NCBI GenBank assembly: GCA_020073705.1
Contig: JAIQES010000006.1
Span: forward strand, 1 to 64,000
DNA length: 64,000 nt
Direction: 5' to 3'
DNA from: Terriglobia bacterium
GTDB taxonomy: Bacteria > Acidobacteriota > Terriglobia > Acidiferrales > UBA7541
Part shown: piece after piece, positions 19,382 through 45,700 of the stretch
How the letters are laid out: each line of letters begins with the position of its first letter
Numbering within the stretch: the first letter of the stretch is position 1
The notes under the pieces: model-generated
The model's input: the letters and a program-made list of their open reading frames with translations, nothing else
Told to the model about the DNA's origin: nothing
The model's database searches: none
Translations under genes and position numbers: made by a program

Positions 19382-19397
19382 CAATTCCCTGTTTCCT

Positions 19398-20048: not shown

Positions 20049-20293
20049 ACCAACGTCGCTCGGAGCCGTCTCCGAGGTGGACAGCCTAGACGGCCTTAGA
20101 GCCTCTCTGTAAACCGCGGAAGCGGCCACGAATCGCGGAAAACGGCGCGCTGGACCACGAAGGGGCTACAACCCGGCAGCGAAACCTCGCCCTTCCATAC
20201 AATCGCTGCCGGACTGCTCCGAGTATATTTAAGATTGCGATTATAAAAACCCCACCCAACCCTCGTCTGAGACGTGCACTATACCAGCATTGC

Positions 20294-20808: not shown

Positions 20809-20955
20809 ACCAAGCAAGAACACGGGGGTATTCATGTAACGCAATAAAATTCCGGCGCATCAAAATAGGCATAATAAGGAGAAGGTAGTACAGTTGTGAT
20901 TTCCCTTCCGCCGGTTTGCGCCGCAGGAAGGATCGGGCTACTTCGAGAACAGGCT

Positions 20956-23900: not shown

Positions 23901-24129
23901 GCGCCCTGTGCTGATGACGGCGCTGGCGATGATCATCGGAATGGTTCCGCTGTCGCTGGGATGGGGCGAAGGCGGCGAGCAGAACGCGCCGCTTGGCCGC
24001 GCGGTTATAGGCGGCTTGATCGTAGCCACATTTGCGACTCTATTTTTTGTGCCGTGCGTGTTCTCACTGGTCCATCGACATCACAGGCCGGGGACACGGG
24101 CAGACGCTGCGGCAGAGAACATTTCTTAG
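20956..24129 (+). CDS. RND efflux pump permease (HAE1/AcrB family)
   Basis: Inner-membrane, proton-driven exporter of about 1057 residues with the two-repeat, 12-helix RND layout and two large periplasmic loops. It begins with the family N-terminus MWIVRIALNRPYTFIV. The fourth helix carries GILVDDATVAIENIERN with the adjacent Asp pair of the proton relay, and the second half has GTIMCMGVATANSILLVSFA. The start is ATG 20956; GTG 20896 is an alternative that lies ten bases after a strong AAGGAGAAGG site and would add 20 residues. It is followed 31 bases later by its adaptor. No outer-membrane channel is adjacent; a TolC gene lies 6 kb away in the island. Confidence 0.93.
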   Translation: MWIVRIALNRPYTFIVVALVIILMTPIVLQRTPTDVFPNIDIPVVSIIWNYTGLPPQQMEYRIVTNFERYMTAVVDNIEHTESQTVGGRSVIKTFFHPGTDVHVALTQITAVSQAIIRQLPLGISPPIIVTYSASAVPILQLGLKGQGISEQELFDYGNNIIRSQMATVPGAAVPWPYGGKMRQVSVNVDIPALQAKGLSPVDVINAISAQNLALPSGTAKLGSTEYNVELNGSTETIAALNDLPIKTSNGATIYVRDVANVSDGFSPQINIVRMDGQRGVLVSVYKNGAVSTLDVVSQIYAKLPQVASLLPPQLVITPLFDQSIFVRAAVQGVVREGLVAACLTALMILLFLGSWRSTLIIAISIPLSILVSISVLSALHETINLMTLGGLALAVGILVDDATVAIENIERNLAQGKDTVRAILDGSQEIAIPALVSTLCICIVFVPMFFLTGVAKFLFVPLAEAVVFAMLASYLLSRTLVPTMAMYLLKHHHGEEYATGNDIFSRIQRMFAQGFQRMRDGYRRSLNFCLDHALLFLALFLLLCVASVPFLFVLGRDFFPSVDAGLIRLHMRARAGQRVEETAREADGVDNLIRRVIPAEDLGNVLDNIGLYNSSINTSYSNSGVIGESDAEILIGLKPGHKLPTKHYIDRLREDLAEEFPGTQFFFQPADMVSQILNFGVPAPVDIQLVGPNQTANYKIAQEISNRIQHIPGAVDVHVQQLRSYPTLFLDVDRTKAQSVNLSQQDVANSVLLSLSSSLQITPSFWVNPANGIEYNVVVQVPQYKIDSMQALNNIPVSSGFTRTPQILQNLAQMNVNVEPALISHYNSNPMVNVYASVEGRDLGSVDTDIQNVLQDFKSKLSRGTQLVRRGQVATMTSSFAGLGAGLGVAIVLVYLLIVVNFQSWIDPFIIITALPGALAGIIWILLLTHTTLSVPSLTGTIMCMGVATANSILLVSFARERLNEGLNSKQAALQAGYIRMRPVLMTALAMIIGMVPLSLGWGEGGEQNAPLGRAVIGGLIVATFATLFFVPCVFSLVHRHHRPGTRADAAAENIS

Positions 24130-24160
24130 CATAGCCGGAAGTTCGAGGAGAATGTTGCGG

Positions 24161-25405
24161 ATGTCCGAAATCCCTACCGATTCGCATAACGTTTCGCAGC
24201 ACCAAGATAGCTCCAGCGGCTTGACGACGCGCCGCGGCCCGTTGCTGCGGTGGTTTTTCCTATTCTTTGTCGTTTTGCTGGCGCTGGGCGTCTATGTTCT
24301 TGTACAGAGGCGAACCGAACACCGTGTGCTAGCCGAGCAGACGGAGAAGATGGCCGTGCCGTTCGTCTCGGTGATTCACGTGACGCCGATCGTGGGTGGA
24401 GGCGAAATGGTGTTGCCGGGAACACTCACGGCATACGTCGATTCCCCCATTTACGCTCGCACTAATGGATATCTGAAGAAATGGTATAAAGATATCGGTA
24501 GCCACGTGAACAAAGGCAACCTCCTCGCCGAAATTGAAACCCCCGAAGTGGACCAACAGCTACTGCAGGCTCGCGCCGATCTCACCACCGCTCAGGCAAA
24601 TCTCAACCTATCCAGCATCACAATGGCGCGTTATCAAGATCTGCTGAAGACCGAGTCCGTTTCCAAACAGGATGTGGACAACGCCAACGGTGATCACGCG
24701 GCGCGACAAGCGATGGTGCAATCGGCTGAGGCCAACGTCAAGCGTCTTGAAGAGCTGGAATCGTTCAAGCGCGTCTACGCGCCGTTTTCAGGCGTGATCA
24801 CACAGCGGAACATCGATACAGGAACGTTGATCAATGCAGGGAATGGCGGTATCGCCACCAAGGAAATGTTTGACCTCGCGCAAATCGATCCGTTGCGCGT
24901 CTTTGTCTCCGTTCCTCAGTCCTACGGACCCTCGATTCACTCCGGGCTGAAGGCATGCCTTGAGTTGCTCGAGTTCCCCGGGCGCAGATTCTGCGGCCAA
25001 GTCGCGCGCACGTCTAACTCGATCGACCCCGCGACACGCACGTTGCTCACCGAAGTGGACGTGCCCAATCCCTCCGGCACGCTGCTTCCGGGTGCGTACG
25101 CGCAAGTGTACTTTGCCGCCAAACTGACCGATCAGCGGCTCACCTTGCCGATCAATGCCTTGCTCTTCCGCCCGGAAGGAACAATGGCCGCTGTCGTCGG
25201 TTCGGATAGCCGTCTCAATTTGAAGAAAATCACCATCGGACGTGATTTGGGTACTGCTGTTGAAATTCTCCAGGGGATCGCGCCGGAAGATAACGTCGTG
25301 GTCAATCCACCCGACGCGCTAGAACAGGGAGAGCAGGTCAATGTCACGGCGGAGAAACCTGAACGTTCACCGGATGCGCGAGGGTCTCAAGGATCCAAAC
25401 GATGA
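24161..25405 (+). CDS. RND efflux periplasmic adaptor (membrane fusion protein)
   Basis: Periplasmic adaptor of 414 residues linking the pump to an outer-membrane channel. It has one N-terminal membrane helix (LRWFFLFFVVLLALGVYVLV), a lipoyl/beta-barrel region (GTLTAYVDSPIYARTNGYL), a coiled-coil hairpin (about 135-210, alternating Leu/Ala/Gln) and a C-terminal beta-barrel. Two in-frame ATGs occur; 24161 was chosen because GAGGAG ends ten bases upstream, whereas 24152 would leave one base. It forms an operon with the permease. Confidence 0.9.
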   Translation: MSEIPTDSHNVSQHQDSSSGLTTRRGPLLRWFFLFFVVLLALGVYVLVQRRTEHRVLAEQTEKMAVPFVSVIHVTPIVGGGEMVLPGTLTAYVDSPIYARTNGYLKKWYKDIGSHVNKGNLLAEIETPEVDQQLLQARADLTTAQANLNLSSITMARYQDLLKTESVSKQDVDNANGDHAARQAMVQSAEANVKRLEELESFKRVYAPFSGVITQRNIDTGTLINAGNGGIATKEMFDLAQIDPLRVFVSVPQSYGPSIHSGLKACLELLEFPGRRFCGQVARTSNSIDPATRTLLTEVDVPNPSGTLLPGAYAQVYFAAKLTDQRLTLPINALLFRPEGTMAAVVGSDSRLNLKKITIGRDLGTAVEILQGIAPEDNVVVNPPDALEQGEQVNVTAEKPERSPDARGSQGSKR

Positions 25406-25689: not shown

Positions 25690-25766
<77 letters not shown>

Positions 25767-25774
25767 GATTCTAG

Positions 25775-25807
25775 ATGGGCGCTCGGCGTATCTGTTTGAG
25801 CGCCCAT
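25775..25807. terminator. Hairpin after tRNA-fMet
   Basis: ATGGGCGCTC (25775-25784) pairs perfectly with GAGCGCCCAT (25798-25807) across a 13-base loop. The following sequence is only weakly T-rich. It shares the GGGCGCT core with the true terminator at 37085-37120 on the far side of the island, as expected if the original tRNA terminator was displaced and the element brought a similar one. Confidence 0.55.
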
Positions 25808-25814
25808 CACTTTG

Positions 25815-26010
25815 TTAGTTGACCTTTTCCGGCCTCACACCTTCCGCCGACCCTCTTGCTAACAAATAGCTAACAAATGGAAATGAGGCTTCCACTTTCT
25901 CGGCGTATTTGCGCCCCTCGTCGTTGACCATGTGGGTGTAGATGTTCATCGTCGTCGTATCCGACGCGTGCCCCAAGCGCTCCTGCGCGTGGTGCGGAAG
26001 GCCGGCGTTT
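25815..26010 (-). pseudogene. Tyrosine recombinase/integrase, C-terminal fragment
   Basis: The minus-strand reading contains AQERLGHASDTTTMNIYTHM, matching the C-terminal catalytic motif of phage-type integrases (LGHxxxxTTxxxYTH) with the nucleophile Tyr near 25938-25940, and then an amphipathic tail to the stop at 25815. The upstream catalytic Arg and N-terminal DNA-binding domains are missing. Upstream, the open minus-strand frames no longer resemble an integrase; one of them (26024-26188, stop TAG) encodes an unassigned coherent peptide with SLAMVAQQIKGSFTNTLFQ. The position next to the tRNA 3' end is where an island integrase belongs. Confidence 0.7.
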
Positions 26011-26181
26011 CTGGGTTTGCATCCTAGCGTGCTTCGACTGGAAATGCGGTGCCCCGCAGTTCTTGGAATAGCGTGTTCGTGAAGCTCCCTTTGATCTGCT
26101 GAGCCACCATCGCCAGCGAATCGTCGGTAGGCAAATCGCGCACCCAGCTGCGACCACGGCCGCAGCCTAATCCGTCCCCAT

Positions 26182-26706
26182 CTACTTCTTCGTTTGAGGA
26201 GGATAATTCTTAAAGAGCTTGGCCATCGCTTTCTGGAGGTTCCTGTAGTTCTTGTCCGGGTCTTTACTCGGCTCAAGCGTCTTCGTGGCCACTCCACGCC
26301 ATATCAGTTGTTTCCTCGCGGGATCGTACATGTTGATCACCAGTTGTCCGACCTTTATGGTTCTGGTCTCGGCCTGAGCCATGCCTCCTCCCCAACGAGG
26401 TCCCGTGCCCCAGACATCCACTCTTCTTTCTTCGTTCACAGCTGCCTGGTAGCCAACGTACAGATCCGCGCCCTTTTCTACCTTGGTCAGGCCTTTCAGC
26501 GCGAGTTGTTCATCGACCGCTCGCTTAATGTTTTGGTCCACCAACTGATCAGTCACTGCACCACCTTGTATGTCAGCCCACTGGTAAGTCTTGTAGGCAG
26601 CAAAGTTGGTGGCACGGTCATAGTTGTAATGAACGTCTTGTCCCCACGCGACAGCGACCACGCATAAGAAAGCCAATGCCGTTGTGGCTCTCAACGTAAG
26701 TGTCAT
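26182..26706 (-). CDS. DUF4136 family lipoprotein-like exported protein
   Basis: A 174-residue secreted protein with a signal peptide (MTLTLRATTALAFLCVVAVAWGQ) and a compact alpha/beta domain. It begins DVHYNYDRATNFAAYKTYQW and contains the family feature VGYQAAV and LVINMYDPARKQLIWRGVA, typical of DUF4136. Such proteins are periplasmic or outer-membrane associated with no defined function. The start was set at ATG 26706, where the signal peptide begins. It is the most distal gene of the sulfatase-island operon. Confidence 0.8.
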   Translation of the reverse strand: MTLTLRATTALAFLCVVAVAWGQDVHYNYDRATNFAAYKTYQWADIQGGAVTDQLVDQNIKRAVDEQLALKGLTKVEKGADLYVGYQAAVNEERRVDVWGTGPRWGGGMAQAETRTIKVGQLVINMYDPARKQLIWRGVATKTLEPSKDPDKNYRNLQKAMAKLFKNYPPQTKK

Positions 26707-26836
26707 AGAAAAGCTCCTTTCGTTCCGCTTCCGCAAAATCCGATGCAGTCAGATCACACCTCCAACCGTCACTTCCTTGCACCCAGAGCGAGCCAACGAC
26801 ATCTATCAAACAGTGTCGAAGTCGACGCGACTTTAG

Positions 26837-27391
26837 TCATTTCACGACGTAACCTTTTCCCTCCATGCAGGCGCCGAATCCTTTCTTGAAGCTGTCGAGT
26901 TTCTCCTGGGTCTGTGCTTTCGCCTGGGCCTGCTGCTGTTGCTGCTGTTTGGCATGTTCCTGGGCCTGTCGCTGTGCGCGCCTGGCCCTGGCGCGGCCTG
27001 CTATTGTTCCAGCGGCCGCTCCAGCTGCGGCTCCCTTCCCGGCATCGCCTGCTATCGCTCCTACGACCGCACCGGTTGCCGCTCCGCCCGCGGCCCCCTT
27101 CACCCCCGCTCCTCGTGTTTGGGGAGTTTGTGGTGTCGATGGCAGCGCTGTAGTAGAGGATTGCTGCTTGCTCAGCTCAGCGACGGGGTCGAAACCCGAA
27201 TCCTGCTTCGCCCAGCTGTAACAGGCTGATTCGTCCTTTTCTTGCTGTGCCGCTGTCTGGTTCTTTGCCGGAAAGGTGTGTAGTCCCAGGGAGTTCGACA
27301 TCGATTTTTGTGGAGTGGACGCGGTAGGTTGCTGTGCCTGCGTCCAACTTACAACCGCCAACATTAGTGTGCAGAGTAGGAATGTCTTCAT
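26837..27391 (-). CDS. Glycine-zipper exported protein
   Basis: A 184-residue protein with a signal peptide (MKTFLLCTLMLAVVSWTQAQ) and a Ser/Gln/Pro-rich region containing a Cys in DESACYSWAKQDSGFDP. A glycine-zipper segment (about 95-130: GAAGGAATGAVVGAIAGDAG and repeats) follows, then a long Gln-rich coiled coil. The last part has a second Cys in FGACMEGKGY. Glycine zippers insert into or associate with membranes. The start is ATG 27391; a longer frame to 27529 is not preceded by a signal-like sequence. The function is unknown. Confidence 0.75.
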   Translation of the reverse strand: MKTFLLCTLMLAVVSWTQAQQPTASTPQKSMSNSLGLHTFPAKNQTAAQQEKDESACYSWAKQDSGFDPVAELSKQQSSTTALPSTPQTPQTRGAGVKGAAGGAATGAVVGAIAGDAGKGAAAGAAAGTIAGRARARRAQRQAQEHAKQQQQQQAQAKAQTQEKLDSFKKGFGACMEGKGYVVK

Positions 27392-27525
27392 AGCTGTAAT
27401 CCTCCCCCGTTTCATGAAAAGAACTTCCCTTTCGAGTTTCCTCGCCGGGCTCCAATGGCGATGGTTCGTTCTTGACCGACCGCCACCCATTGCCCACGTT
27501 GAATTCGAAACCTTTATTGCCGCTT

Positions 27526-28776
27526 TCATCTCTCAGCCTGAACCCGGCGCATGATGGCTGGCATAACCGGATCAATGTGTTCCCAGAACTTCTTTAGCCC
27601 ACTGCACAGGTAGTTCAGTCCCGGTTCGCCGCTCGGAGTTCGGAGAAGGCGATTCTTCGGGCACTCGCCATTGCATGCGAACAAATACTTGCATTCGCGG
27701 CAATACTGCGGCAGAGAAGCAAATTTATTCAACCCGAACGTCACTTGCCGTCCAGAGAACACTATGTTGGAACTGGTGCTGTGCAGAATGTTGGCGAGTT
27801 CGTAGTGGAAATAGACGAAGTGGTCGCAGGCATAGACGGTGCCATCGTGCTCCAACACAACATTCTTGCCGCAGAATTCATGGTAGGTACACATCTGTGA
27901 GTCCATACCCATCCACTGAGCCACCGCAGTCTCGAACAGGTTCACAAATATTTTCCCGTAGTCCCTCGCGTACCATTCGTCCCAGACCTTGCAGAGAAAC
28001 TTGCCCCAATCATTCGGGTTCACCGACCAGTCCGTAACCACAGAGTCAGGATTTCCAGGATGCGCAGCCGAGGATTCAAGACATGGCAAGCTCACCGGAT
28101 CCCATTGCTGTGGAGCAATGGTCCGGAAGACCTTGGGCTCCACACAGGGAAGGAACTGCAGCTCATAGGGACATACTTCCCGGCTGAGAAAGCGGTACAC
28201 ATCGAGGGGTCGCGTAGCGTTTAGCCGGTTGACGACGGTCAGAGTGTTAAACCTTACACCGTGTTTGTGAAGCAGCTCAGCGGCCGAGAATACTTTCTTG
28301 AAGGTGGGCCGTCCGTCTTTGGTTCGGCGATATGCGTCGTGGAGTTTTTCTGGGCCGTCGATGCTGAGACCCACCAGAAAGTGATGCGTCTTCAGAAACC
28401 GGCACCACTCATCGTCCAGCAGAGTGCCATTGGTCTGAAGATCGTTTTCGATGCTCTGCCCAGGTCGCCTGTACTTCTGCTGCAGTGCGACCACTTTCTC
28501 GAAGAACGCCAGCCCCATGAGGGTCGGCTCGCCGCCCTGCCAGGTGAAGACGACCTCGTCGCCCTCCTGTCCCTCGATGTATTGACGGATATGCGTTTCG
28601 AGAATCTCGTCGGAAATTCGCGATTTTGAACTCGTGCCCAGAAGCTGTTCTTTATGAAGGTAGTAACAATAGGTGCAATTCAGATTGCACACGGAGCTCG
28701 TGGGCTTCACCATCACATGATAACGGCGCCCTGTGCCTTTCGATGATTGGACGAGAATTATTCGAGGAATCGTCAT
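27526..28776 (-). CDS. Anaerobic sulfatase-maturating enzyme (radical SAM/SPASM)
   Basis: A 416-residue cytosolic radical S-adenosylmethionine enzyme that converts the active-site Ser or Cys of sulfatases to formylglycine before export. The radical SAM cluster motif is CNLNCTYC (Cys30, 34, 37). VVFTWQGGEPTL and QTNGTLLDD follow, and the C-terminal SPASM domain has CTYHEFCGKN, YACDHFVY and CRECKYLFACNGECPKNR for two auxiliary [4Fe-4S] clusters. It is encoded beside two sulfatases whose active site is Ser, which only this class of maturase (not the oxygen-dependent FGE) can modify. Confidence 0.94.
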   Translation of the reverse strand: MTIPRIILVQSSKGTGRRYHVMVKPTSSVCNLNCTYCYYLHKEQLLGTSSKSRISDEILETHIRQYIEGQEGDEVVFTWQGGEPTLMGLAFFEKVVALQQKYRRPGQSIENDLQTNGTLLDDEWCRFLKTHHFLVGLSIDGPEKLHDAYRRTKDGRPTFKKVFSAAELLHKHGVRFNTLTVVNRLNATRPLDVYRFLSREVCPYELQFLPCVEPKVFRTIAPQQWDPVSLPCLESSAAHPGNPDSVVTDWSVNPNDWGKFLCKVWDEWYARDYGKIFVNLFETAVAQWMGMDSQMCTYHEFCGKNVVLEHDGTVYACDHFVYFHYELANILHSTSSNIVFSGRQVTFGLNKFASLPQYCRECKYLFACNGECPKNRLLRTPSGEPGLNYLCSGLKKFWEHIDPVMPAIMRRVQAER

Positions 28777-28807
28777 AGCGCAACTATGTCCTTAGAGTCA
28801 GAGCCAT

Positions 28808-28832
28808 GGCCCGCGCCGCTGTGGCGCGGGCC
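28808..28832. terminator. GC-rich hairpin between sulfatase 1 and the maturase gene
   Basis: GGCCCGCGCC (28808-28817) and GGCGCGGGCC (28823-28832) form a perfect 10-bp stem with a 5-base loop. It lies in the 74-base gap after the sulfatase stop and before the maturase start. There is no T run on either strand, so it may be a pause or mRNA-stability element rather than an intrinsic terminator. Confidence 0.5.
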
Positions 28833-28850
28833 ACTGTACTCGTCATACGT

Positions 28851-31271
28851 TCAATCCACTGCCGCCAGTTCGGCAGCCGCTCGACGCTCGACCTTCTCTG
28901 CCGCTGCCTTGGCGGCTGTGTCCTGCGGTTTCAGATCGACCACGACTTTTTCAATGGTGCCGGTAAACTTGAACGGCACGTCGTAGTCCTCGCTCACAGG
29001 TGTCCCGGTGTCTTCGCCGACGTCGAAGGTTTCATCGAGGCTGAAGCGCAGGGGCATGGTGGCGCCGATGCGGCCTTGGGCGACCTGCTTGCCGTCCGCG
29101 CTGAGCGTGCCAGTGCCACCTTTGCCGATGTCGCCGCCATCGTACTTGAAGTCGAAGACAACGCTGTGCTTGCCGGGCGCAAGGGCGTCTTTGGCCGCGA
29201 TGTTGTAGTGTGTGACGTTCCCCAAGTTATAATGGAAAATCGGCTTGCCGTCCTTGAACATCAGCGCGTAGCCAGCGGACAGTCCGCCCTGCGTGACTAC
29301 AATGCCTTGTTCATTGCCCTTAGGGAGAACCACGCTAGTGGTGATGCGGAACGACTTGTTCTTCACATCCGGTGCCCCGCCCTCGGGGATACGCGTCAAG
29401 GTACCGTAGTAGGTGAACTCTGTGCGTCCGCGCGTGAGGCTGGGGCGTATGGCCGGGTCCATGCGCAGAGCCTTGCTGTCATCCAGAGGTAGCACGTTGT
29501 ATTTGGCGGCCTCAGCATAGAACAGCAACTGGAGTTCGTGGAGCTTGTCTGGATTCTGCTCGGCCAGATTAACCGCCTCGCTGAAGTCGTCCGCGACATG
29601 ATAGAGCTCCCACGTATAGCCGCTGATTACATCAATCGGAGGGATAGAGGTCATCAACACATCTTCCCAAGGTGCCAGGTGCGGTGTCGTGCAGGCCACC
29701 CACCCGTCATGATAGATGGCGCGGTTGCCGAACATCTCGAAGTACTGCGTCCGGCGTGCGGACGGCGCTTTGGCATCGTCGAAGGTGTAAGCCATACTCA
29801 CACCCTCGATCGGTTTCTGCGCCACGCCATCAACGGCCGAGGGCTGGGGTAGACCGGTCACGTCCATAATGGTCGGCACGATGTCGATGGTGTGATGCCA
29901 CTGGGACCGGATACCGCCCTGGTCCTTGATACGGGCGGGCCAAGAGATGACCATGCCGTTGCGAGTGCCGCCGTAGTGCGAGGCGATCTGCTTGGTCCAC
30001 TGGAAGGGGGTGTCCATCGCATGGGCCCAGCCGATCGGATAGTGGTTGTGCGTCTTCCACGTACCCAGATCGTTCTTGTGTTTGAGGACCTCTTTGTAAT
30101 CTTCAGGTATTCCGTTCAACATGGCGATCTCGTTTAATGAGCCTCCCATCAAGCCCTCGGCGCTGGCGCCGTTGTCGCCGACAATGTAGATGACAAGCGT
30201 GTTGTCGAGTTGGCCCAGCTGCTCAATCGCATCCAGGACGCGGCCCGCGTTGTAGTCGGTCTGGCTGAGATAGCCGGCGTAAATCTCCATCATGTAGGCA
30301 TAGAGCTGCTTCTGTTCGGCATTGAGGGAGTTCCAGGCCGGTATCCCCTGGGTGCGCGGGGTCAACTGCGTGTTTTGCGGCACTAGGCCCAGTTTCTTCT
30401 GCCGGGCGAGTGTTTCCTCGCGCACCTTGTCCCAGCCCTGATCGAACTGGCCCTTGTATTTCGCGATCCATTCCTTCCTCGGGTGGTGCGGGGAGTGCGT
30501 GGCCCCCGGCGCATAGTAGAGGAAGAACGGCCGGTCGGGTGCGACGGCCTTCTGATTACGCACCCATTTGATGGCCTTGTCGGCCATGTCGTAATCGAAG
30601 TTGTAGTCCGGATTCCCGAGGTATGGCTCGATGGGCGTGGTGCCTTCAAAAATTGCCGGACGCCACTGGTTGGTCTCCGCGCCAACAAACCCATAGAAAT
30701 AATCGAAGCCCAGAGCGGTCGGCCAGAGGTCGAAGGGACCGGCCTGGCTGCTCTGCCAATCGGGCACGTTGTGATTCTTGCCGAACCAGCTCGTGTTCCA
30801 ACCTTTCTGTCTGAGAATTTCGGCGACAGTCGCCGTGTCCTTGCCCATCAGGCTGTCGTAGCCGGGAAAGCCCGTGGCCTGTTCCATGATCACTCCCGTG
30901 TGCGCGGAGTGATGATTCCGGCCGGTGAGCAGCGCGGCGCGTGTGGGCGAGCTGAGCGCCGTGGTGTGGAACTGCGTGTAGCGCAGCCCGTGCTGCGCGA
31001 GCCGTTCAAGCGTCGGCGTACTGATGGGCCCCCCGAAGCTGCTCGACGCTCCGAAGCCGACGTCATCCAGCAGAATCAAGACAACATTAGGCGCTCCCTT
31101 GGGCGCCACCATCGGCTTTGGAAAGTCGGAGTTCGAGTCTTTGACGCTCAGCCCGATTTGTCCCTTGAAAGGCGCCGGAGGTGCGGGCAGCACCTCCTGA
31201 CCAAACGCCGGCAGACTGCAGCCCGCCGCGGCTACTGATAATGCCGTCAAAGCTATGTTTTGCGATCTCAT
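28851..31271 (-). CDS. Serine-type sulfatase 1 (exported)
   Basis: An 806-residue type I sulfatase. A signal peptide (cleavage near AFG/Q at 24-25) leads into the alkaline-phosphatase-fold catalytic domain. Metal-binding Asp residues are in LLDDVGFG (about 69-70), and the formylglycine motif is SSPTRAALLTGR with the convertible Ser near 107. The last 200 residues form a beta-rich domain. Ser in place of Cys requires the radical SAM maturase, encoded immediately downstream. The likely role is periplasmic release of sulfate from a sulfated organic compound; the substrate cannot be predicted. It is about 55-60% similar by eye to sulfatase 2. Confidence 0.93.
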   Translation of the reverse strand: MRSQNIALTALSVAAAGCSLPAFGQEVLPAPPAPFKGQIGLSVKDSNSDFPKPMVAPKGAPNVVLILLDDVGFGASSSFGGPISTPTLERLAQHGLRYTQFHTTALSSPTRAALLTGRNHHSAHTGVIMEQATGFPGYDSLMGKDTATVAEILRQKGWNTSWFGKNHNVPDWQSSQAGPFDLWPTALGFDYFYGFVGAETNQWRPAIFEGTTPIEPYLGNPDYNFDYDMADKAIKWVRNQKAVAPDRPFFLYYAPGATHSPHHPRKEWIAKYKGQFDQGWDKVREETLARQKKLGLVPQNTQLTPRTQGIPAWNSLNAEQKQLYAYMMEIYAGYLSQTDYNAGRVLDAIEQLGQLDNTLVIYIVGDNGASAEGLMGGSLNEIAMLNGIPEDYKEVLKHKNDLGTWKTHNHYPIGWAHAMDTPFQWTKQIASHYGGTRNGMVISWPARIKDQGGIRSQWHHTIDIVPTIMDVTGLPQPSAVDGVAQKPIEGVSMAYTFDDAKAPSARRTQYFEMFGNRAIYHDGWVACTTPHLAPWEDVLMTSIPPIDVISGYTWELYHVADDFSEAVNLAEQNPDKLHELQLLFYAEAAKYNVLPLDDSKALRMDPAIRPSLTRGRTEFTYYGTLTRIPEGGAPDVKNKSFRITTSVVLPKGNEQGIVVTQGGLSAGYALMFKDGKPIFHYNLGNVTHYNIAAKDALAPGKHSVVFDFKYDGGDIGKGGTGTLSADGKQVAQGRIGATMPLRFSLDETFDVGEDTGTPVSEDYDVPFKFTGTIEKVVVDLKPQDTAAKAAAEKVERRAAAELAAVD

Positions 31272-31308
31272 GAACTAACCTCCTTGTTGCTGATTTGATA
31301 GTTGCGTC

Positions 31309-31449
31309 TCATTGCATAGGTTCAAGCGGATCCTTTCTCCTTTCCCACATCAGCTCCACGCCTCGCATTTCTTCCGCAATGCTTAAGAAGTCATGATATT
31401 GAAGTCCCTTGTGTTCGAGGACCTTGGCTTCCGGCAGGTAGAGTCGCAC
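31309..31449 (-). CDS. Small 46-residue protein between tolC and sulfatase 1
   Basis: A short frame on the minus strand from GTG 31449 to TGA 31309-31311, just after tolC. The peptide is coherent and charged, containing LYLPEAKVLEHKGLQYHDF, SIAEEMRGVELMWERRKDP and a final PMQ. There is no signal peptide or membrane segment. The frame is also open a little upstream, overlapping the tolC stop. I do not recognise it; the amino-acid composition is gene-like and it fills an otherwise empty gap in the operon, but its ribosome-binding site is weak. Confidence 0.4.
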   Translation of the reverse strand: MRLYLPEAKVLEHKGLQYHDFLSIAEEMRGVELMWERRKDPLEPMQ

Positions 31450-31463
31450 CGTTGTCCAACGTT

Positions 31464-32939
31464 CTACTTGCCCCCTGTTCCAATCAACTGCTGCAACCGG
31501 GAAAATGCCTGGCGGTACTCCAGTTCCGCCTGCAGCACTTCTGCTTCGATTCTCGCTCTCGCGGCTTTGGCCTCTTCGGGTTCATAGTTCACTTCTATCG
31601 CCTGACTTGCCGAGTTCATGCGGCGTGCGAGTTGGGTGAGCTGGCGTGAGCGGTCCAGGTCAAAGTAGGCCTTGGCCACGCTCGCGGCAACCTTGGCTTT
31701 GACCAGCTGCAATCCGGTCTCTGCCATAGCGGCCTGTGCATTGCGTTCTTTCATCGTGCGCTCGCGCTTGCCGAAGTCAAACAAGTTGTAGCTGGCCATC
31801 ACACCGACATACGAGAAGTCGTTGGGCAAGAGCGGCACTGCGTTTTGATAGGCATAGCCGCCAATCACGGCCACGTCCGGTACGTAATCCAGCTTGGAGA
31901 GTTTCGAGACTGCTTGAGCCTTAACCAATGTCTGTTCCGCCTCCACTACTTCCGGGTTGTTCTGCAAGGCCTTCTCGGCTGCTTCACTGGCGGAGATGTT
32001 CTCGCTAAATGGGGCGGGCATCACCGGCTCAAGCTCCGTATCTGCCGGCCATCCCAGGAGCGCGTTGAGAGCCACTGTAGCCTCTTTCACCTGGCTGCTG
32101 GCCAGTACGAACGCCTTATCGGCCTCGATCCACTCCATCTCGTGTTCGACTAGACCTGCAGGCGGGGTCGAGGTACTTGCCAGGAGCCGCTTGTTCTCGA
32201 CCTTCTTGAGCTTCGCTTCGGCGATTTCCCTTTGCCGCTGAGCAACCAGCAGGTCGAAAAACGACTGCTCGACATTGCTGGCCACTTCGGACGCCGGCTC
32301 GCCGGCTTTGGCCCTTGCCACTCGCTCGTCGGCGCGGGCAATCCTGAGGACCTGGTGAAGTTTGAATAATGGGGTGATCGGTTGCGTTACCGTGACCGCT
32401 ACCAAGGTTTCGTCTTTAGACACAAGCGGCACTGCGAACGTGATATCCCCGAGAACCGGTCTTTTGACCAGGAGGGTATCACCCATAAACTTGTTGAAGT
32501 GGAGGTTGGCGAAGGTGGAGCTGATCTTCGGGAAGAAATCCGATTGCACGCCCAGCCGGTGTTGTTTGGCCGCTTCGACGCCCAGTGTTGCGAGGCGGAA
32601 CATCGGGTTGTTGGCTGTTGCGGCTTGCTGTTGTGCTTCGTCCAGCGTAATTCGGCGGGGGCCAGAACCGGGCGCTAACTTCGCAGCTTCCGCTGCCGGA
32701 TTCCAGCGGACCGGAGTCGCAAGCTGAATCGAGGCCGAGAAGTCAGCTTTCCTGCCGGTAACCGGCGTGAGGTACTGTGCTAGAGGGGTAACGCCTGAAG
32801 GGTGTGGGCCCACAGTGACGCCTGTAGCAGGCTGTTCTTGTGCAGCAACGGCCACTCCAAGAACACAAAGACAAACGACAACGAAGACACGCACTCCAGT
32901 TGTTGCGATCCGAAGCTGAGCATTTATCCAATGTGTCAT
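31464..32939 (-). CDS. TolC-family outer-membrane efflux protein
   Basis: A 491-residue outer-membrane channel subunit with an N-terminal signal (VFVVVCLCVLGVAVAAQ), then the duplicated TolC pattern of long alpha-helical coiled coils (for example around 195-240 and 330-470) interrupted by beta segments such as FAVPLVSKDETLVAVTVTQP. It would form the trimeric exit duct for an RND or ABC exporter. It sits between two sulfatase genes, so it may export products or serve the RND pump at 21-25 kb that lacks its own channel. Confidence 0.85.
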   Translation of the reverse strand: MTHWINAQLRIATTGVRVFVVVCLCVLGVAVAAQEQPATGVTVGPHPSGVTPLAQYLTPVTGRKADFSASIQLATPVRWNPAAEAAKLAPGSGPRRITLDEAQQQAATANNPMFRLATLGVEAAKQHRLGVQSDFFPKISSTFANLHFNKFMGDTLLVKRPVLGDITFAVPLVSKDETLVAVTVTQPITPLFKLHQVLRIARADERVARAKAGEPASEVASNVEQSFFDLLVAQRQREIAEAKLKKVENKRLLASTSTPPAGLVEHEMEWIEADKAFVLASSQVKEATVALNALLGWPADTELEPVMPAPFSENISASEAAEKALQNNPEVVEAEQTLVKAQAVSKLSKLDYVPDVAVIGGYAYQNAVPLLPNDFSYVGVMASYNLFDFGKRERTMKERNAQAAMAETGLQLVKAKVAASVAKAYFDLDRSRQLTQLARRMNSASQAIEVNYEPEEAKAARARIEAEVLQAELEYRQAFSRLQQLIGTGGK

Positions 32940-32973
32940 GATTTGATCTCCTTCTTCCTGAAAAGATAGGCTG

Positions 32974-32997
32974 AGGGCGGGTCGACCGTCCCGCCCT
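32974..32997. terminator. Hairpin between sulfatase 2 and tolC
   Basis: AGGGCGGG (32974-32981) pairs with CCCGCCCT (32990-32997), loop of eight bases, in the 65-base gap between the two genes. It is not followed by a T run. Likely a transcript-processing or partial attenuation site. Confidence 0.45.
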
Positions 32998-33004
32998 GCT
33001 TCTC

Positions 33005-35410
33005 TTATTCCGTTGCGAGCCTTGCCTCACGCTCCATATTGCGAAGCGTCTCTTGCTCCGCAGCGGTAAGGCTTGGCGGTTGGGTGTCGATGACCACTTT
33101 CTTGAGCTTGCCGGTGTAGCGATTCGGCGAGGCATAGGCATTGCTTACGGGTGAGCCGCTGTCTTCACCAATGTCGAAATCCTCAAGCGTGAAACGACCC
33201 CAGGCGCTCTTTGCAAGCCGGCCCTCCCCGACCTTTTTGTCATTCACGAAGAGAATTACTGTGCCGCCTTTGCCGAGGCCGCCTCCGTCATAACGGAACT
33301 CCATGCGGATGACATTCGGCCCCGACGCCAGAACTTCGGAACTGGTCACCTTGTAGCGCGTCTGCGCGGCATAGTTCGATTCGTAGGTCGGCCGCCCATC
33401 TTTGATGAAGAGAACATAACCGCCCGGAACCCCGCCTTCGGCTACCAGAACTCCATCTGACCCTCCTGGTGGCACATCCACGTAGGCGGTAATCGTGTAC
33501 GACCGGTTCGTGAGTTGAGCAGCCGAGCTATAGGGGACTCGTACAGTTCCCGGGTAGTAGGTGTAGGTGGTTCGCCCTGCAATTAGACTGGGACGCAAGG
33601 TGGTGTCCGCTATTCGTTCGGTAAGACGATCGTCGAGCGGGAGTACCTGATATTTTTCGGCTTCTCCCCAGAACGCGTTTTGAAATTCTTTCAGCTTGTC
33701 GGGATATTGCGCAGCCAGATCGTTGCCTTGGCTGAAGTCGTGCGCCAAGTCGTAGAGTTCCCAGGTGTCTTTGTCAAAATCATAGGTCCCCAGCGTCCAC
33801 GGCAGGCGGCCATGCCGGACGGAAGCCATCCAGCCATCTTTGTAGAGCGCCCGATTGCCGAGCATCTCGAAGTACTGCACCTTCCGCGTGCCCTCGGCGT
33901 TCGCTTTGTCGAAGCTGTACATCATGCTCACGCCTTCTATCGGCTTCTGTTTTGCCCCGTTCACTTCGTTAGGTTCCGAGATCTTTGCTGCCTCCAGGAT
34001 GGTGGGCGCGATGTCAATCACGTGATGAAACTGCGTGCGCAGGCCGCCCTGATCCTTGATGCGGTCCGGCCAGGCGATCACCATCGGGTTGCGCACGCCG
34101 CCCAGGTGCGAGGCGATCTGCTTGCCCCACTGGAACGGCGTGTTCATGGCCCAGGCCCAGCCTACCGGGTAGTGGTTGTAGGCATTCGGCCCGCCGATCT
34201 CATCCAGGTGCTGCACGATGTAAGCCGGATCTTCCGGAATGCCGCCCAGGGCCGCTGACTCATTGAAACAACCATAGGGAGTGCCTTCCATGGAGGCGCC
34301 GTTGTCCCCGATGATCCAGAAGATGAGCGTATTGTGCAGTTGCCCGATCTGCTCCAGGGCATCGAGGACGCGCCCCACTTCGTAATCGGTTTGAGCGGTG
34401 AACCCCGCGAACGCTTCCATCAGACGCGCGGCCACACGCTTCTGGTCAGGTGTTAACGAGTCATAGGCCGGAATCTCCTTGGGACGCGGAGTCAACTTCG
34501 TATTGGGCGGGACGACGCCTATTTTGAGCTGGCGCTTATAAGTCTCCTCGCGGTACTTGTCCCAACCCTGATCGAATTGCCCCTTGAACTTGTCCATCCA
34601 CTCTTTCGGAACGTGATGCGGAGCATGGGTGGCGCCGGGGGCGTAGTAGACGAAGAACGGCCGGTCGGGCGTGACCGACTTCTGGTGAAAGATGTAGTTG
34701 ATGGCCTCGTCCGCCAGCGAGTCGTTCAGCGTGTAGTGTCCTTCCTTGCCTTTCGGGATCGTCATCTCAACTGGCTGGTTGTCACGATAAAGGCCGGGTG
34801 CCCACTGGTTCGTCTCTCCGCCGACGAAGCCATAGAAGTGATCGAAGCCTTGCAGAGCGGGCCAACGGTCGTACGGACCGGACACGCTGGTTTCCCAATC
34901 GGGGATGTTATGGTTCTTGCCGAAGAAAGCGGTGCCGTAGCCGTTCTGCCGCAGAATTTCCGAGACCATTGCGGCGCTCTTGGGAATCTGACCGCTATAG
35001 CCTGGATACCCGCTACCCATTTCAGTAATCACGCCCGTGCCGACCGAGTGGTGGTTGCGCCCGGTCAACAGCGCCGCGCGGGTCGGCGAACTGAGGGCCG
35101 TGGTGTGGAAGCGCGTGTAACGCAGCCCCATGTTGGCTAAGCGGTCCAGGTTGGGCGTGGGAATCTGCCCACCGAAAGTGCTCCACCCGCCGAAGCCCAC
35201 ATCGTCAATCAGGACGACCAGAACGTTGGGGGCACTGGCAAGCGCCTTGGTGATCGGAATCTTGTCGGGTTGCGATTCTTTGTATGTGCGCCCGATTTTC
35301 CCCTTGAAGGGAGGCTCGGGCTTGGGCAACACCTCCTGCGCGTACAGTGGCAGGCCCCAACACGTGAAGGCCACGGAACATGCTGCGAAACTTATTTTTC
35401 GTGATTTCAT
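33005..35410 (-). CDS. Serine-type sulfatase 2 (exported)
   Basis: An 801-residue paralogue of sulfatase 1 with the same layout: a signal peptide ending near YAQ (24-25), metal site LIDDVGFGG (about 68-74), formylglycine motif SSPTRAALLTGR with Ser near 107, and a C-terminal beta domain. The two proteins align from end to end, with the active-site Ser at the same residue number, so they derive from a gene duplication. Different loops (for example GWSTFGGQIPTP against GASSSFGGPISTP) may give different substrate preference. It is preceded by the DUF2490 gene with an 11-base gap. Confidence 0.93.
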   Translation of the reverse strand: MKSRKISFAACSVAFTCWGLPLYAQEVLPKPEPPFKGKIGRTYKESQPDKIPITKALASAPNVLVVLIDDVGFGGWSTFGGQIPTPNLDRLANMGLRYTRFHTTALSSPTRAALLTGRNHHSVGTGVITEMGSGYPGYSGQIPKSAAMVSEILRQNGYGTAFFGKNHNIPDWETSVSGPYDRWPALQGFDHFYGFVGGETNQWAPGLYRDNQPVEMTIPKGKEGHYTLNDSLADEAINYIFHQKSVTPDRPFFVYYAPGATHAPHHVPKEWMDKFKGQFDQGWDKYREETYKRQLKIGVVPPNTKLTPRPKEIPAYDSLTPDQKRVAARLMEAFAGFTAQTDYEVGRVLDALEQIGQLHNTLIFWIIGDNGASMEGTPYGCFNESAALGGIPEDPAYIVQHLDEIGGPNAYNHYPVGWAWAMNTPFQWGKQIASHLGGVRNPMVIAWPDRIKDQGGLRTQFHHVIDIAPTILEAAKISEPNEVNGAKQKPIEGVSMMYSFDKANAEGTRKVQYFEMLGNRALYKDGWMASVRHGRLPWTLGTYDFDKDTWELYDLAHDFSQGNDLAAQYPDKLKEFQNAFWGEAEKYQVLPLDDRLTERIADTTLRPSLIAGRTTYTYYPGTVRVPYSSAAQLTNRSYTITAYVDVPPGGSDGVLVAEGGVPGGYVLFIKDGRPTYESNYAAQTRYKVTSSEVLASGPNVIRMEFRYDGGGLGKGGTVILFVNDKKVGEGRLAKSAWGRFTLEDFDIGEDSGSPVSNAYASPNRYTGKLKKVVIDTQPPSLTAAEQETLRNMEREARLATE

Positions 35411-35421
35411 GTCTTCTGCTC

Positions 35422-36129
35422 CTAGAAATACATGCTAAGTGTCAGGCCTAAGGTCTCCACTTGCTGATTCGCACGGCCCCCGGTCTGGTTCATGTGTTGG
35501 AAAGTGGGTTCAAGTTCGAAATGCTTCTTGAAAGGAAAAACGATGCCAGCGATCAGCGCAGTCGCGCTCCACTTGTTGAAGTTGCTATCGAAATATCCTT
35601 CACCACGGATATAGGGCGTGAAGGCGTAGGAACCGACGGAAACTTCGCGTTCCATCGTCAGGCGGTTTCGGTACCGCCAGGAAGTGCCGCCGTTAATCCA
35701 GCGCAGCTCACCTCGATTGCGATCCGTCACCAGTATCTTCCAGACGAGCGGAAATCGCGGACTTGCCTCAAGTACAATTCGGTTCTCCGTTACATTGCCA
35801 GCCGACTGGAGATACCGATACCCGATCGTCAAGTTCAGCGTGCGGGACTTGAACTTGTCAGGCTGCCGTTCGGTGAGCTGGCGCAGCTTCAGCAAAGGTT
35901 TCAGGGAGAGTTGGAGGCTGGGACCGATCTCGGACTGGACGGGGGACCCTTCTTCGCGAGTCCTGTCCGCCTGCACCCAGAGCCGCGCGCTCTTGCTCAG
36001 GCTCACATACGCATCCACCTCCGGGCACAAGTCAATGGTCTGGGCCGTGGCGGCCTGGGAGAGAAGCGATACATTCCAGCCTGCGAGAACAACCGAGAAC
36101 ACTTTGGCAGTCAGACCTTCTGCTCTCAT
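35422..36129 (-). CDS. DUF2490 family outer-membrane-like protein
   Basis: A 235-residue protein with a signal peptide (ending near ATAQ) and alternating polar/aromatic beta strands ending in a C-terminal Phe (LTLSMYF), as in outer-membrane barrels. It has DUF2490 features such as LNLTIGYRYLQS, NRIVLEASPRFPL and RNRLTMEREV. It is the first gene of the island sulfatase operon and so a candidate porin for entry of sulfated substrates. That role is inferred from position. Confidence 0.75.
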   Translation of the reverse strand: MRAEGLTAKVFSVVLAGWNVSLLSQAATAQTIDLCPEVDAYVSLSKSARLWVQADRTREEGSPVQSEIGPSLQLSLKPLLKLRQLTERQPDKFKSRTLNLTIGYRYLQSAGNVTENRIVLEASPRFPLVWKILVTDRNRGELRWINGGTSWRYRNRLTMEREVSVGSYAFTPYIRGEGYFDSNFNKWSATALIAGIVFPFKKHFELEPTFQHMNQTGGRANQQVETLGLTLSMYF

Positions 36130-36340
36130 ACGTCGTCCTATCTTGTCTTGCTGTGGTTGCTACCAAGCACAAGCCTTCAAGGCGCTGGTTTTTGATTCTG
36201 TGCCACCGCCCCCCGCTCCTGCAGCAACAGGGAGGATACGATTGGGGAAAAGTACTGGCTCGCAGCCTGACTTCACTTTCTGCGGTATCCAGCCGCGTCC
36301 CGTGGCCAATATGTGGTCTAGAAACCTTATATATCAGTGA

Positions 36341-36383
36341 TGTCAAACACACCCTCGTGTGATTACACGCACACTCTCATGTG
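36341..36383 (-). promoter_or_regulatory. Twin CACAC...GTGTG-type sites upstream of the sulfatase operon
   Basis: CACACCCTCGTGTG (36348-36361) and CACACTCTCATGTG (36370-36383) are 12/14 identical, each an imperfect palindrome, with starts 22 bases apart, about two helical turns. On the minus strand a TTGACA (36346-36341) follows directly, pointing into the DUF2490-sulfatase operon; its -10 box is poor. That arrangement suits an activator bound just upstream of -35. The regulator is not encoded in the island as far as I can see. Confidence 0.5.
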
Positions 36384-36399
36384 AGCTCAAGTACAAGAG

Positions 36400-36585
36400 T
36401 TAATGAACGATCTCGTCCTGAAACACAAACGAGTTGCCGGCGTTCTGTCTGGGTCGAACCTCATGCAGCAGAGCTTCAAGCTTTGGCGGCATCTCGATTA
36501 CGCGCAGTGATTTTCGGGACTCGCAGCGCCCGGCTGTGCTCATGAAAGGTTTTTGGCAGCCGTCGACATGGAACTCCACCGGCAC
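36400..36585 (-). pseudogene. Integrase fragment near the far end of the island
   Basis: The minus-strand frame contains SRKSLRVIEMPPKLEALLHE and ends NSFVFQDEIVH. This resembles the segment of tyrosine recombinases between the first catalytic Arg and the His/Arg/His region (K..R.I.MPP.L...L, FVF.DE). The N-terminal domain and the C-terminal Tyr are absent. Orientation and order relative to the fragment at 25815 would fit a single gene whose two parts flank the cargo. Confidence 0.5.
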
Positions 36586-36843
36586 GCAATTATTCTCGCT
36601 GGAAGAAAAGATAAGAATCGGGCTGACGCGATCGTCAGATTATTTGGCGGTCTGTCGTATTTCGTTACCCTGTCAGACAACTATGACGGCGCTGATTTCC
36701 TCAAAACCCTCGTATTCGATGCTCAGCGTGGCGAGACTAACGGAATGTTGTTCTCTGTGGCAGAGGCGGAACTACTGGAGACGGATGATGTGGCTACGAG
36801 TTTGGAAACGATATGGGATAACGTTCGGGTGTCGGGCCAATAG
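36568..36843 (+). CDS. Hypothetical 91-residue protein
   Basis: A plus-strand frame from ATG 36568. The peptide has balanced composition, including HAIILAGRKDKNRADAIVRL and ETDDVATSLETIWDNVRV, without signal or membrane segment. It overlaps the 5' edge of the integrase fragment by 18 bases. I do not recognise it and it may be chance; TTG 36553 would add five residues. Confidence 0.3.
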   Translation: MELHRHAIILAGRKDKNRADAIVRLFGGLSYFVTLSDNYDGADFLKTLVFDAQRGETNGMLFSVAEAELLETDDVATSLETIWDNVRVSGQ

Positions 36844-37037
36844 TTCATGGATTTTTCTCGACGCAAGAATTCGGAACCAATTAATACAAGAACAGCAGAA
36901 CACCTAGGGCGTAGCGTAGACACTCACGGAACAACCGCCGCCTAGTAATAATCTTGGGAAAGATTTGGGAAAGAACTCCACTTGGATTATTGCTCGTTAA
37001 GTCGCACAGAATCAACGGGCAGTAAATAATAGTACGT

Positions 37038-37083
37038 GCTCATAACCCGAAGGTCGTTGGTTCAAATCCAACCCCCGCAACCA
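37038..37083 (+). repeat. Attachment-site repeat, far copy (attR-like tRNA-fMet 3' fragment)
   Basis: Exact 46-base copy of positions 25721-25766: half of the anticodon arm, the T arm, acceptor 3' strand and CCA. It has no 5' half and cannot make a tRNA. The terminator that follows probably belonged to the original tRNA gene before integration. Confidence 0.9.
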
Positions 37084-37270: not shown

Positions 37271-38566
37271 ATGGGCATGACGATTGCCCAGAAAATCCTA
37301 GCTACAAAGGCCGGTCTCTCTACTGCAGAGCCGGGAGAAATCGTAGAGGCTTATCCGGACCTTGTGATGAGTCACACGGCCACGTGGCGATCAGTCAGCG
37401 TTATGAACAAGATTGGCGCCACCAAACTCTTCGATCCCGAACGTCTCGCCATTGTTCTGGACCATATCTCGCCTGCAAAATCCGAAAAGAACGCCGCTGA
37501 TCAGCAGGTTAGTCGTGCGTTCGCTCGAAAGTACGGGATTCGCAAATTCTTTGACATTGATTCCGGCATTGCCCATTTAGTTCTGATGGAAGCCGGACAC
37601 GTTGCCCCAGGTGACTTGATTGTTGGAACCGATTCCCATTGCACAATCTACGGAAGCCTTGGCGCGCTCGGCACGGGAATCGGATATACGGAGGTCACGT
37701 CAGTCTGGCTTACTGGGAAGCTCTGGATGAAGGTCCCGGATACCTTCCGGATCGTTCTTAGTGGTGAATTTGCGCCGGGTGTTTTCTCAAAGGATCTAAT
37801 GCTCTACCTCATCGGAACCCTCGGTGCCGATGGATGCAGCTACAAATCGATTGAATTCTACGGTGATTCGGTTGTCGGCCTGAGCATATCCGAACGAATG
37901 ACAATGGCAAACCTCGCGATGGAAATGGGTGTGAAGTGTGCTTTCTTTCCTCCCGATGCGAAGACTCTGGAATATTTAAAGAATCGGCTGAAAGAGCCTG
38001 ATCGTTACCACCCCGTTTACGCCGACACGGACGCCGTATACCAAAAGAAACTGGAAGTTGATCTCGCACAACTGGAACCTATGATTGCCTGTCCTCACGA
38101 GGTTCAGAACACAAAGCCAATAGGAGAGGTCGTCGGAAAGAAAATTGATCAATTGTTTTTAGGTTCATGCGCAAATGCCAAATACGAAGACCTGGCAATA
38201 GCCGCCCAGATCCTCAAAGGCCGCCATATTCACCCGAGCGTACGATTGATTGTCACGCCAGGCTCCAAGAATATTTTGCTAGAAGCAGCCGAGTCGGGCG
38301 TTTTTAAGACCCTACTTGAAGCGGGTGGTCTTTTCACGAATCCTGGCTGCGGAGCATGTGTGGGCGATGGAGGTGCCCTTGCCGATGGCGAAGTATGCCT
38401 GTCGACAGCTAACCGCAATTTCCTGGGACGGATGGGAAGCAGCAAGGCAGAGATCTACTTGTGTAGCCCAGCAACTCTGGCAGCGTCTGCCATTCGTGGT
38501 GTCATTTCAGATCCCAGGGAGTTTTTGCAAGATGCCTGGGCATCTGCAAGAGGGGAGGAGGCATGA
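37271..38566 (+). CDS. Aconitase/isopropylmalate-isomerase family hydro-lyase, large subunit 1
   Basis: A 431-residue LeuC/homoaconitase-type large subunit. The [4Fe-4S] cluster ligands are Cys300 (FLGSCANAKYEDL), Cys360 and Cys363 (NPGCGACVGDGG). The substrate-site motif IVGTDSHCTIYGSLG is also present. These enzymes dehydrate and rehydrate hydroxy-di/tricarboxylates, working with a small swivelling subunit. Its stop overlaps the start of that subunit (ATGA). The genetic context (M24-fold, cyclodeaminase-like, MFS, GntR) is catabolic rather than leucine synthesis, so a leu name would mislead. The substrate is unknown. Confidence 0.88.
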   Translation: MGMTIAQKILATKAGLSTAEPGEIVEAYPDLVMSHTATWRSVSVMNKIGATKLFDPERLAIVLDHISPAKSEKNAADQQVSRAFARKYGIRKFFDIDSGIAHLVLMEAGHVAPGDLIVGTDSHCTIYGSLGALGTGIGYTEVTSVWLTGKLWMKVPDTFRIVLSGEFAPGVFSKDLMLYLIGTLGADGCSYKSIEFYGDSVVGLSISERMTMANLAMEMGVKCAFFPPDAKTLEYLKNRLKEPDRYHPVYADTDAVYQKKLEVDLAQLEPMIACPHEVQNTKPIGEVVGKKIDQLFLGSCANAKYEDLAIAAQILKGRHIHPSVRLIVTPGSKNILLEAAESGVFKTLLEAGGLFTNPGCGACVGDGGALADGEVCLSTANRNFLGRMGSSKAEIYLCSPATLAASAIRGVISDPREFLQDAWASARGEEA

Positions 38567-39069
38567 AGACGATAATTCAAGGTAAGGCTTTCAAGTTCGG
38601 GGACAATATCAACTCTGACGTCATCATCCCGGGCCAGTATCTCATTTATATTGATGCGGAGCGCCTCAGTCAACATGCTTTTGAAGTGCTCGGAGATGAC
38701 TTCCCAGCCAAACTGCGCAATTATCAAATTCTAGTCGCAGGTCGGAATTTCGGGTGTGGGAGCGCACGAGAACAGGCGGCGACAGCGATTCGGGGGCTCG
38801 GCATCAACGCCGTCGTAGCTTCCTCGTTTTCGCGCACCTTCTATCGCAATGCCATTAATGACGGCCTTCCCATCATTGAGTGCCCCGATCTCCATGCTGC
38901 AGTTGAGGAGGGTGACGATCTTCGCATTGATCTAGCCCAAGCGTTGATCTTTCACCGGGACCGGCATTATTCCTTCCCAAAACTTCCCGACTCTGTCCGC
39001 GGGATTCTTGAAATGGGTGGCCTCGCCGCGTACTTGAAGACGCAGTTGACCTCTCCGCCTAGGCCTTGA
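38563..39069 (+). CDS. Aconitase/isopropylmalate-isomerase family, small subunit 1
   Basis: A 168-residue LeuD-type subunit, the swivel domain completing the active site of the upstream large subunit. DNINSDVIIPGQYL is the family N-terminus and GRNFGCGSAREQA holds the catalytic Ser and the substrate-binding Arg. The ATGA overlap with the large subunit indicates stoichiometric translation. The gene is convergent with the second large subunit, 27 bases away. Confidence 0.88.
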   Translation: MKTIIQGKAFKFGDNINSDVIIPGQYLIYIDAERLSQHAFEVLGDDFPAKLRNYQILVAGRNFGCGSAREQAATAIRGLGINAVVASSFSRTFYRNAINDGLPIIECPDLHAAVEEGDDLRIDLAQALIFHRDRHYSFPKLPDSVRGILEMGGLAAYLKTQLTSPPRP

Positions 39070-39096
39070 ACGGAGATATGGCCTTCGCCCGTGCAG

Positions 39097-42450: not shown

Positions 42451-42459
42451 GCGCACCTC

Positions 42460-44063: not shown

Positions 44064-44144
44064 GGTAGTAGCCTCGATCCCGCAGTGACTTGTTTTAAAC
44101 GCTCATCGTGGCAAACGGCAAAACCGCACTTCGACGGACAAATC

Positions 44145-45540: not shown

Positions 45541-45700
45541 ACTAATGAAGCCGCACAACAATTTCCAAGTACATTTCTCGGGCAAGTAGTGACGGGTGAC
45601 AGAATTATGGAGCAAAGACAACCACGAAGTGCGATGGTTGACAATCATCTGACGTTGAGAAAGACTTAGTCAGATCTCGTCGCTCACGAGACGTTGGCAT

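Follow-up and report, generated by a model that had tools for sequence, protein, structure and literature searches.

A tRNA-Met-integrated element carries two serine-type arylsulfatases together with an anaerobic-type maturase

The window analyzed here, a stretch of 64,000 nucleotides from a Terriglobia bacterium (contig JAIQES010000006.1), contains an 11.3-kb element inserted at the 3' end of a tRNA-Met gene, and the cargo of this element appears to be one operon with two long Ser-type sulfatases and an anaerobic-type sulfatase maturase. We consider it probable that, as a whole, it is a tRNA-integrated, self-sufficient module for periplasmic desulfation that is activated by its own maturase. 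The features of the element are as follows.

25690..25766, plus strand: tRNA-Met (cat), the integration target (ARAGORN)
25718..25766, plus strand: attL, the 49-nt 3' end of tRNA-Met, inside the tRNA gene (direct repeat D5)
25815..26180, minus strand: relic of a tyrosine-recombinase gene, C-terminal tail only (three-frame reading and C-terminus match)
26182..26706, minus strand: DUF4136 protein, probably exported (PF13590, 132.7 bits; start by inspection)
26837..27391, minus strand: glycine-zipper protein, probably exported (Gly-zipper_Omp, 25.7 bits, weak; start by inspection)
27526..28776, minus strand: anaerobic-type sulfatase maturase, radical SAM/SPASM (TIGR03942, 480.9 bits; cut-off 349.45)
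28851..31271, minus strand: SulfB, long Ser-type arylsulfatase, 806 aa (PF00884, 203.8 bits; SSPTR, codon AGC)
31464..32939, minus strand: TolC-like outer membrane efflux protein (PF02321, OEP, 118.3 bits)
33005..35410, minus strand: SulfA, long Ser-type arylsulfatase, 801 aa (PF00884, 220.5 bits; SSPTR, codon AGT)
35422..36129, minus strand: DUF2490 protein, putative outer membrane beta-barrel/porin, first operon gene (PF10677, 45.8 bits; cut-off 29.8)
37035..37083, plus strand: attR, 48 of 49 nt identical to attL (direct repeat D5)

The attL and attR repeats indicate that the operon and the truncated recombinase gene fill one element (25718-37083), which also holds a stretch of approximately 0.9 kb whose one plausible frame had no Pfam match. 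The 43-nt core of the repeat matched twice in the window, compared with 0 matches expected and 0 in 100 shuffles. A preliminary description of this DNA had placed a seven-gene sulfatase operon at 26182-36129; all seven genes are present there on the minus strand and domain searches agreed with their naming, but the feature itself reaches further, to the tRNA-Met repeats on either side. Three-frame reading of the recombinase gene beside attL showed that its upstream part is missing or out of frame, and a Pfam scan of the relic gave no match. However, 31 aa match the C-terminal end of the intact integrase encoded beside this tRNA in G005, a genome of the same genus (32%, E 8.6e-4), and the C terminus of the relic also matches the integrase at this tRNA in G001 (E 0.003).

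The tRNA-Met gene is an integration hot spot in the genus, occupied by differing elements, two of which have matching repeats and an intact integrase confirmed by Pfam (window 25690-25766; L129:4373-9972; L130:3714-15374; L131; L134; L135). In G005, 48-nt repeats of the same tRNA-Met end bound a 5.6-kb element, and in G004 (same genus) 50-nt repeats bound one of 11.6 kb; in both, an intact PF00589 integrase gene adjoins tRNA-Met. G001, G002, and G003, also of this genus, have partial tRNA-Met copies.

The earlier proposal that the operon is a mobile module is therefore borne out by the paired repeats, the recombinase relic beside attL, and the similar elements that relatives carry at this tRNA: an integrative element entered the tRNA-Met 3' end via a tyrosine recombinase. 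Self-excision is unlikely because the recombinase gene is truncated, and the module is probably now immobile. With regard to viral carriage, the viral contigs searched contained no SulfA relatives. The 49-nt repeat could instead be the remnant of another element, with the operon already chromosomal or arriving separately. This would suit a recombinase gene reduced to a C-terminal relic and the GC content of the element, which equals that of the left flank (0.568 and 0.574); likewise, no empty site was found in the same-genus loci fetched, where tRNA-Met was not flanked by RND or leuC genes. However, the repeat bounds the operon tightly, the relic lies on the tRNA side as in the G005, G004, and G001 elements, and the sulfatase and maturase are missing from most relatives, so we regard separate arrival as very improbable.

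To the right of attR, window positions 37271-46414 encode a leuCD-like pair followed by a second aconitase-type pair, an M24 peptidase, an ornithine cyclodeaminase-like protein, an MFS transporter, and a GntR regulator. GC content here is 0.535 compared with 0.57-0.58. The best match to the leuC-like gene in 26 relatives is only 38% identical, and this segment may therefore be a second acquired one.

The host genome is 97% complete and contains two PF00884 matches, both within the element, which would thereby supply the entire S1 sulfatase set of its host in one step. Apart from the maturase of the element, nothing in the genome matched TIGR03942 at the threshold applied. Two FGE-domain genes (PF03781) are located outside the element, and the host thus has FGE-like proteins as well; the part of the review available to us (PMC3920027) gives Cys as the residue on which FGE acts. 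A search of six genomes from the genus detected long sulfatases in two, the host itself (G000) and G002, whose copy is 49% identical and sits on its own separate contig. Window positions 10048-20129 carry respiratory genes for a cytochrome c oxidase subunit II with cytochrome c domains, NrfD-like and ferredoxin-type proteins, and a multihaem cytochrome. The oxidase subunit suggests that the host probably respires oxygen at least partly. This is in tension with the accessible portion of PMC5066984, which describes Ser-type sulfatases only in anaerobes, whether facultative or strict; a facultatively anaerobic host would reconcile the two.

All seven genes of the operon are encoded on the same strand with intergenic gaps of approximately 11-190 nt, and they are likely to form one transcript that runs leftwards from DUF2490 to DUF4136. 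Promoter and terminator scans gave results near chance. Signal-peptide-like N termini were recognized by eye in six of the seven proteins, the maturase being the exception. For the two small proteins, the probable true starts are internal ATG codons at 27391 (glycine-zipper) and 26706 (DUF4136), each of which opens a signal-peptide-like stretch, also judged by eye. The glycine-zipper assignment is weak, with one model at 25.7 bits against a cut-off of 25 and two models below cut-off.

Both sulfatases read SSPTRAALLTG, which agrees with the preliminary description that SSPTR stands in place of CxPxR. SulfA and SulfB align with the Pseudomonas aeruginosa sulfatase PAS throughout the catalytic core, and the DD, R, K-x-H, H, and GDNG positions are conserved. 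Among nine aligned sequences, most of the residues that we take to be catalytic in PAS are invariant, and the copy from L013, a Nitrospirae MAG, is without the GDNG region. With a PF00884 domain, the [CS]-x-P-x-R motif, and a PAS-like active site, both proteins can be assigned, at the level of sequence, to the FGly-dependent S1 sulfatases, and their conserved residues suggest that they would be catalytically active. No Pfam family matched the C-terminal ~200 residues of either protein. The structure model of SulfA had a mean pLDDT of 58.1, and the best 50 matches from a PDB search with this model were all sulfatases or sulfatase-family entries.

Long sulfatases (E < 1e-100) are present in at least 40 of 396 genomes of Acidobacteriota, the one group that was sampled evenly; the count is a lower bound because two first-look candidates were scored per genome. 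SulfA is 70% identical to the Cys-type L003 and 78% identical over 343 residues to the Ser-type L013, which lacks part of the catalytic region; for SulfB, a Ser-type relative in G088 is 71% identical. The Ser codons are all AGY and the Cys codons all TGY, one base apart. In a tree of 35 of the 40 sulfatases gathered (L005, L011, L012, and L014 were dropped as incomplete and L068 had no readable motif), Ser requires three changes on well-supported branches, and a single Ser clade was rejected (p-AU 2.1e-6). The tree therefore suggests that Ser arose at least three times in a long, mostly Cys-type arylsulfatase family, as seen in an uneven sample taken from best matches and loci with a linked maturase. 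SulfA and SulfB are 53% identical and had been described as paralogous. They are indeed paralogs, but not the products of a local duplication: a sister pairing, as expected of a tandem duplication, was rejected (p-AU 6.7e-5), and each sits in its own branch. At L013:9965-13583, the Ser-type relative has an internal deletion; fragments of a GTPase-like gene and of a maturase gene come next, together with IS-type transposase genes, the GTPase and transposases being named by eye.

The preliminary description stated that only an anaerobic-type maturase can convert Ser. This agrees with the available part of a review (PMC3920027) and with gene linkage across the 53 Acidobacteriota places from the phylum-wide long-sulfatase search, three of which were unreadable. 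A same-strand anaerobic-type maturase gene was located within 5 kb of all five Ser-type genes but of only one of the 45 Cys-type genes (Fisher p 2.8e-6, from counts that are not phylogenetically independent). An FGE gene took the place of the maturase at five of the Cys-type places, and neither anSME nor FGE was present on the same strand within 5 kb at the other 39. A phylogeny-aware pair test had no power (median p 0.5) because there are only three independent Ser origins. In G396 and G372, which belong to one genus, a protein of approximately 410 aa precedes a Ser-type long sulfatase and a maturase (L074:4793-9731 and L075:8291-13189); it had no Pfam match and, in our impression, looks like an outer membrane protein.

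The maturase of the element aligns to the solved anSME structures 4k36/4k37 and retains the radical-SAM (CxxxCxxC) and SPASM cysteines. A TIGR03942 score above cut-off together with these iron-sulfur cysteines supports its assignment as an anSME/AtsB-type enzyme, and linkage at five of five Ser-type places suggests that it would act on Ser. The window maturase groups with those of K. aerogenes, Pantoea, Rahnella, and Paraburkholderia (100/100), outside 20 acidobacterial maturases. The four proteobacterial sequences come from four plasmid records of 71 with a match, and the acidobacterial ones from the TIGR03942 search places plus G016, taken with the best-scoring or sulfatase-linked first. When the proteobacterial sequences were included, co-inheritance with the maturases of the other Ser-type clusters was rejected (p-AU 5.9e-7). 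Without them, the test of a four-member maturase clade was not significant (p 0.188), and that of a clade of the window and G088 maturases was (p 0.0016). Membership in a proteobacterial AtsB-like group makes the operon a mosaic; as far as this sample shows, the sulfatases and the maturase were not acquired as one inherited set.

TolC matches below 1e-40 were found in two of the 43 genomes with long sulfatases (the host and G016, 54%) and in at least two of the 396 genomes of the phylum sample (the host and one of 35%), where three first-look candidates were scored per genome and the counts are lower bounds; none was found on plasmids at 1e-25. In G016, the TolC gene runs opposite to, and lies 1.8 kb from, a cluster in which a maturase gene accompanies two long Cys-type sulfatase genes and a third, sulfatase-like one, so that TolC-sulfatase linkage is known from two genomes of one family. 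The G016 cluster was also considered as a tRNA-Lys island and rejected: the sulfatases are on the 5' side of the tRNA, and L046 contains no tRNA repeat. DUF2490, a putative porin family of unestablished function in the available part of PMC4827864, was encoded within 6 kb of a long sulfatase at three of 17 loci outside the host genome, where 0.064 were expected (p ~5e-5). When only matches above the Pfam cut-off were counted, this became two of 15 loci (p ~0.001); these two, in G083 and G409, come from one family, and the DUF2490 of the third is below cut-off. In G083 and G409, both with FGE and Cys, DUF4136 is also near the long sulfatase. Single-sequence structure prediction for DUF2490 was uninformative (mean pLDDT 30.9).

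It could be argued that the TolC, DUF2490, DUF4136, and glycine-zipper genes are functionally unrelated to the sulfatases and that their linkage in a mobile element is coincidental. Most long sulfatases do lack all of these neighbors, and the exact seven-gene order, which the preliminary description had proposed to look for elsewhere, was absent from every other locus examined. That description had also raised the prospect of sulfatase homologs whose surroundings never retain TolC and the small proteins, which is not what we found in G016, G083, and G409. The proximity of DUF2490 exceeds chance with the host genome excluded, DUF4136 accompanies it in two genomes, and the operon genes are closely spaced on one strand, all of which makes coincidence unlikely. 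A second possibility is that the operon serves sulfur scavenging, where the released sulfate matters rather than the desulfated carbon compound, and that TolC and the small proteins simply came along or have general roles in the envelope. The element encodes neither glycoside hydrolases nor other enzymes for polysaccharides, which is consistent with this idea, as is a Nostoc sp. UHCC 0302 plasmid (L145) on which the gene for a long Cys-type arylsulfatase, 54% identical, is accompanied by genes for FGE and a bile acid:sodium symporter and adjoins ssu genes for sulfonate uptake. However, domain searches of the element recognized no gene for sulfate or sulfonate transport, and scavenging would leave the recurrence of DUF2490 near long sulfatases, and of TolC near those of G016, unaccounted for. 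We therefore treat scavenging as conceivable, with the odds somewhat against it.

Under the self-sufficient module that we favor, the cytosolic maturase would oxidize the active-site Ser of unfolded SulfA and SulfB to formylglycine, as suggested by its family, the motif, and the linkage, and because the module brings its own maturase it would not depend on a host formylglycine enzyme. The sulfatases would then be exported and would cleave sulfate esters in the periplasm, consistent with their signal-peptide-like N termini. Sulfated substrate might be admitted by the DUF2490 protein, and the desulfated product might leave through the TolC-like protein in the outer membrane. The preliminary description had suggested both uptake and export by TolC, and these ideas gain partial support from the recurrence of DUF2490 near long sulfatases and from the 54% identical TolC beside the sulfatase-maturase cluster of G016. 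The OEP domain is present in the TolC-like protein and the element itself has no pump; the exit could perhaps work with the RND-MFP pair on the left of the tRNA. An RND pump and a membrane-fusion protein are encoded at window positions 20896-25405, 0.3 kb to the left of tRNA-Met and on the strand opposite to the operon, and no outer membrane efflux partner was recognized among the part of their neighbors that was scanned.

We also put forward, tentatively and as an idea that may well prove wrong, that association with a linked anaerobic-type maturase let Cys-type members of this family change to Ser on several independent occasions, releasing them from the host FGE and fitting them for travel on tRNA elements with their own outer membrane channels. 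If so, sulfatase-plus-maturase cassettes would be portable, self-activating modules and the window a mosaic example, in which two separately descended Ser sulfatases are served by one proteobacterial-type maturase. The recurrence of the Cys-to-Ser change in unrelated branches, each time beside a maturase gene, offers a testable case of how an enzyme and its activating helper travel together and become mutually dependent.

A Ser-type sulfatase with a linked maturase is already known, and the parts of the element are of known kinds; in the present case, the pair is the cargo of a compact tRNA element and the two sulfatases have separate histories. A literature search returned no arylsulfatase/maturase gene cluster with TolC, and no similar element, among the matches listed. 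The atsBA-type pair of Klebsiella aerogenes (AtsA and AtsB) likewise has a Ser-type sulfatase adjoining an anaerobic-type maturase, but the window sulfatases reach ~800 aa and have an additional C-terminal region; their identity to the K. aerogenes sulfatase compared is only 36% across 114 aa. The window also differs from that pair in having two sulfatases, TolC, DUF2490, two small exported proteins, and the tRNA element. PAS (PDB: 1hdh) is the closest solved relative by sequence (E 9.8e-69) and, among the best 50 matches listed, the first fold match of the SulfA model (29% identity), but it is a Cys-type enzyme of 536 aa without the C-terminal 200 residues. It is placed in SulfAtlas subfamily S1_4 in the available text of PMC5066984, and this subfamily includes aryl sulfatases and a galactose-3-sulfatase in that of PMC10154612. 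The long (~780-860 aa) arylsulfatases of Acidobacteriota and other phyla belong to the same family over their full length, whereas 45 of the 50 readable Acidobacteriota places are Cys-type. The tRNA-Met elements of G005 and G004 share the target, the repeat core, and a minus-strand recombinase gene at the tRNA side; they have intact integrases and other cargo, whereas the window element combines a truncated recombinase gene with the sulfatase operon.
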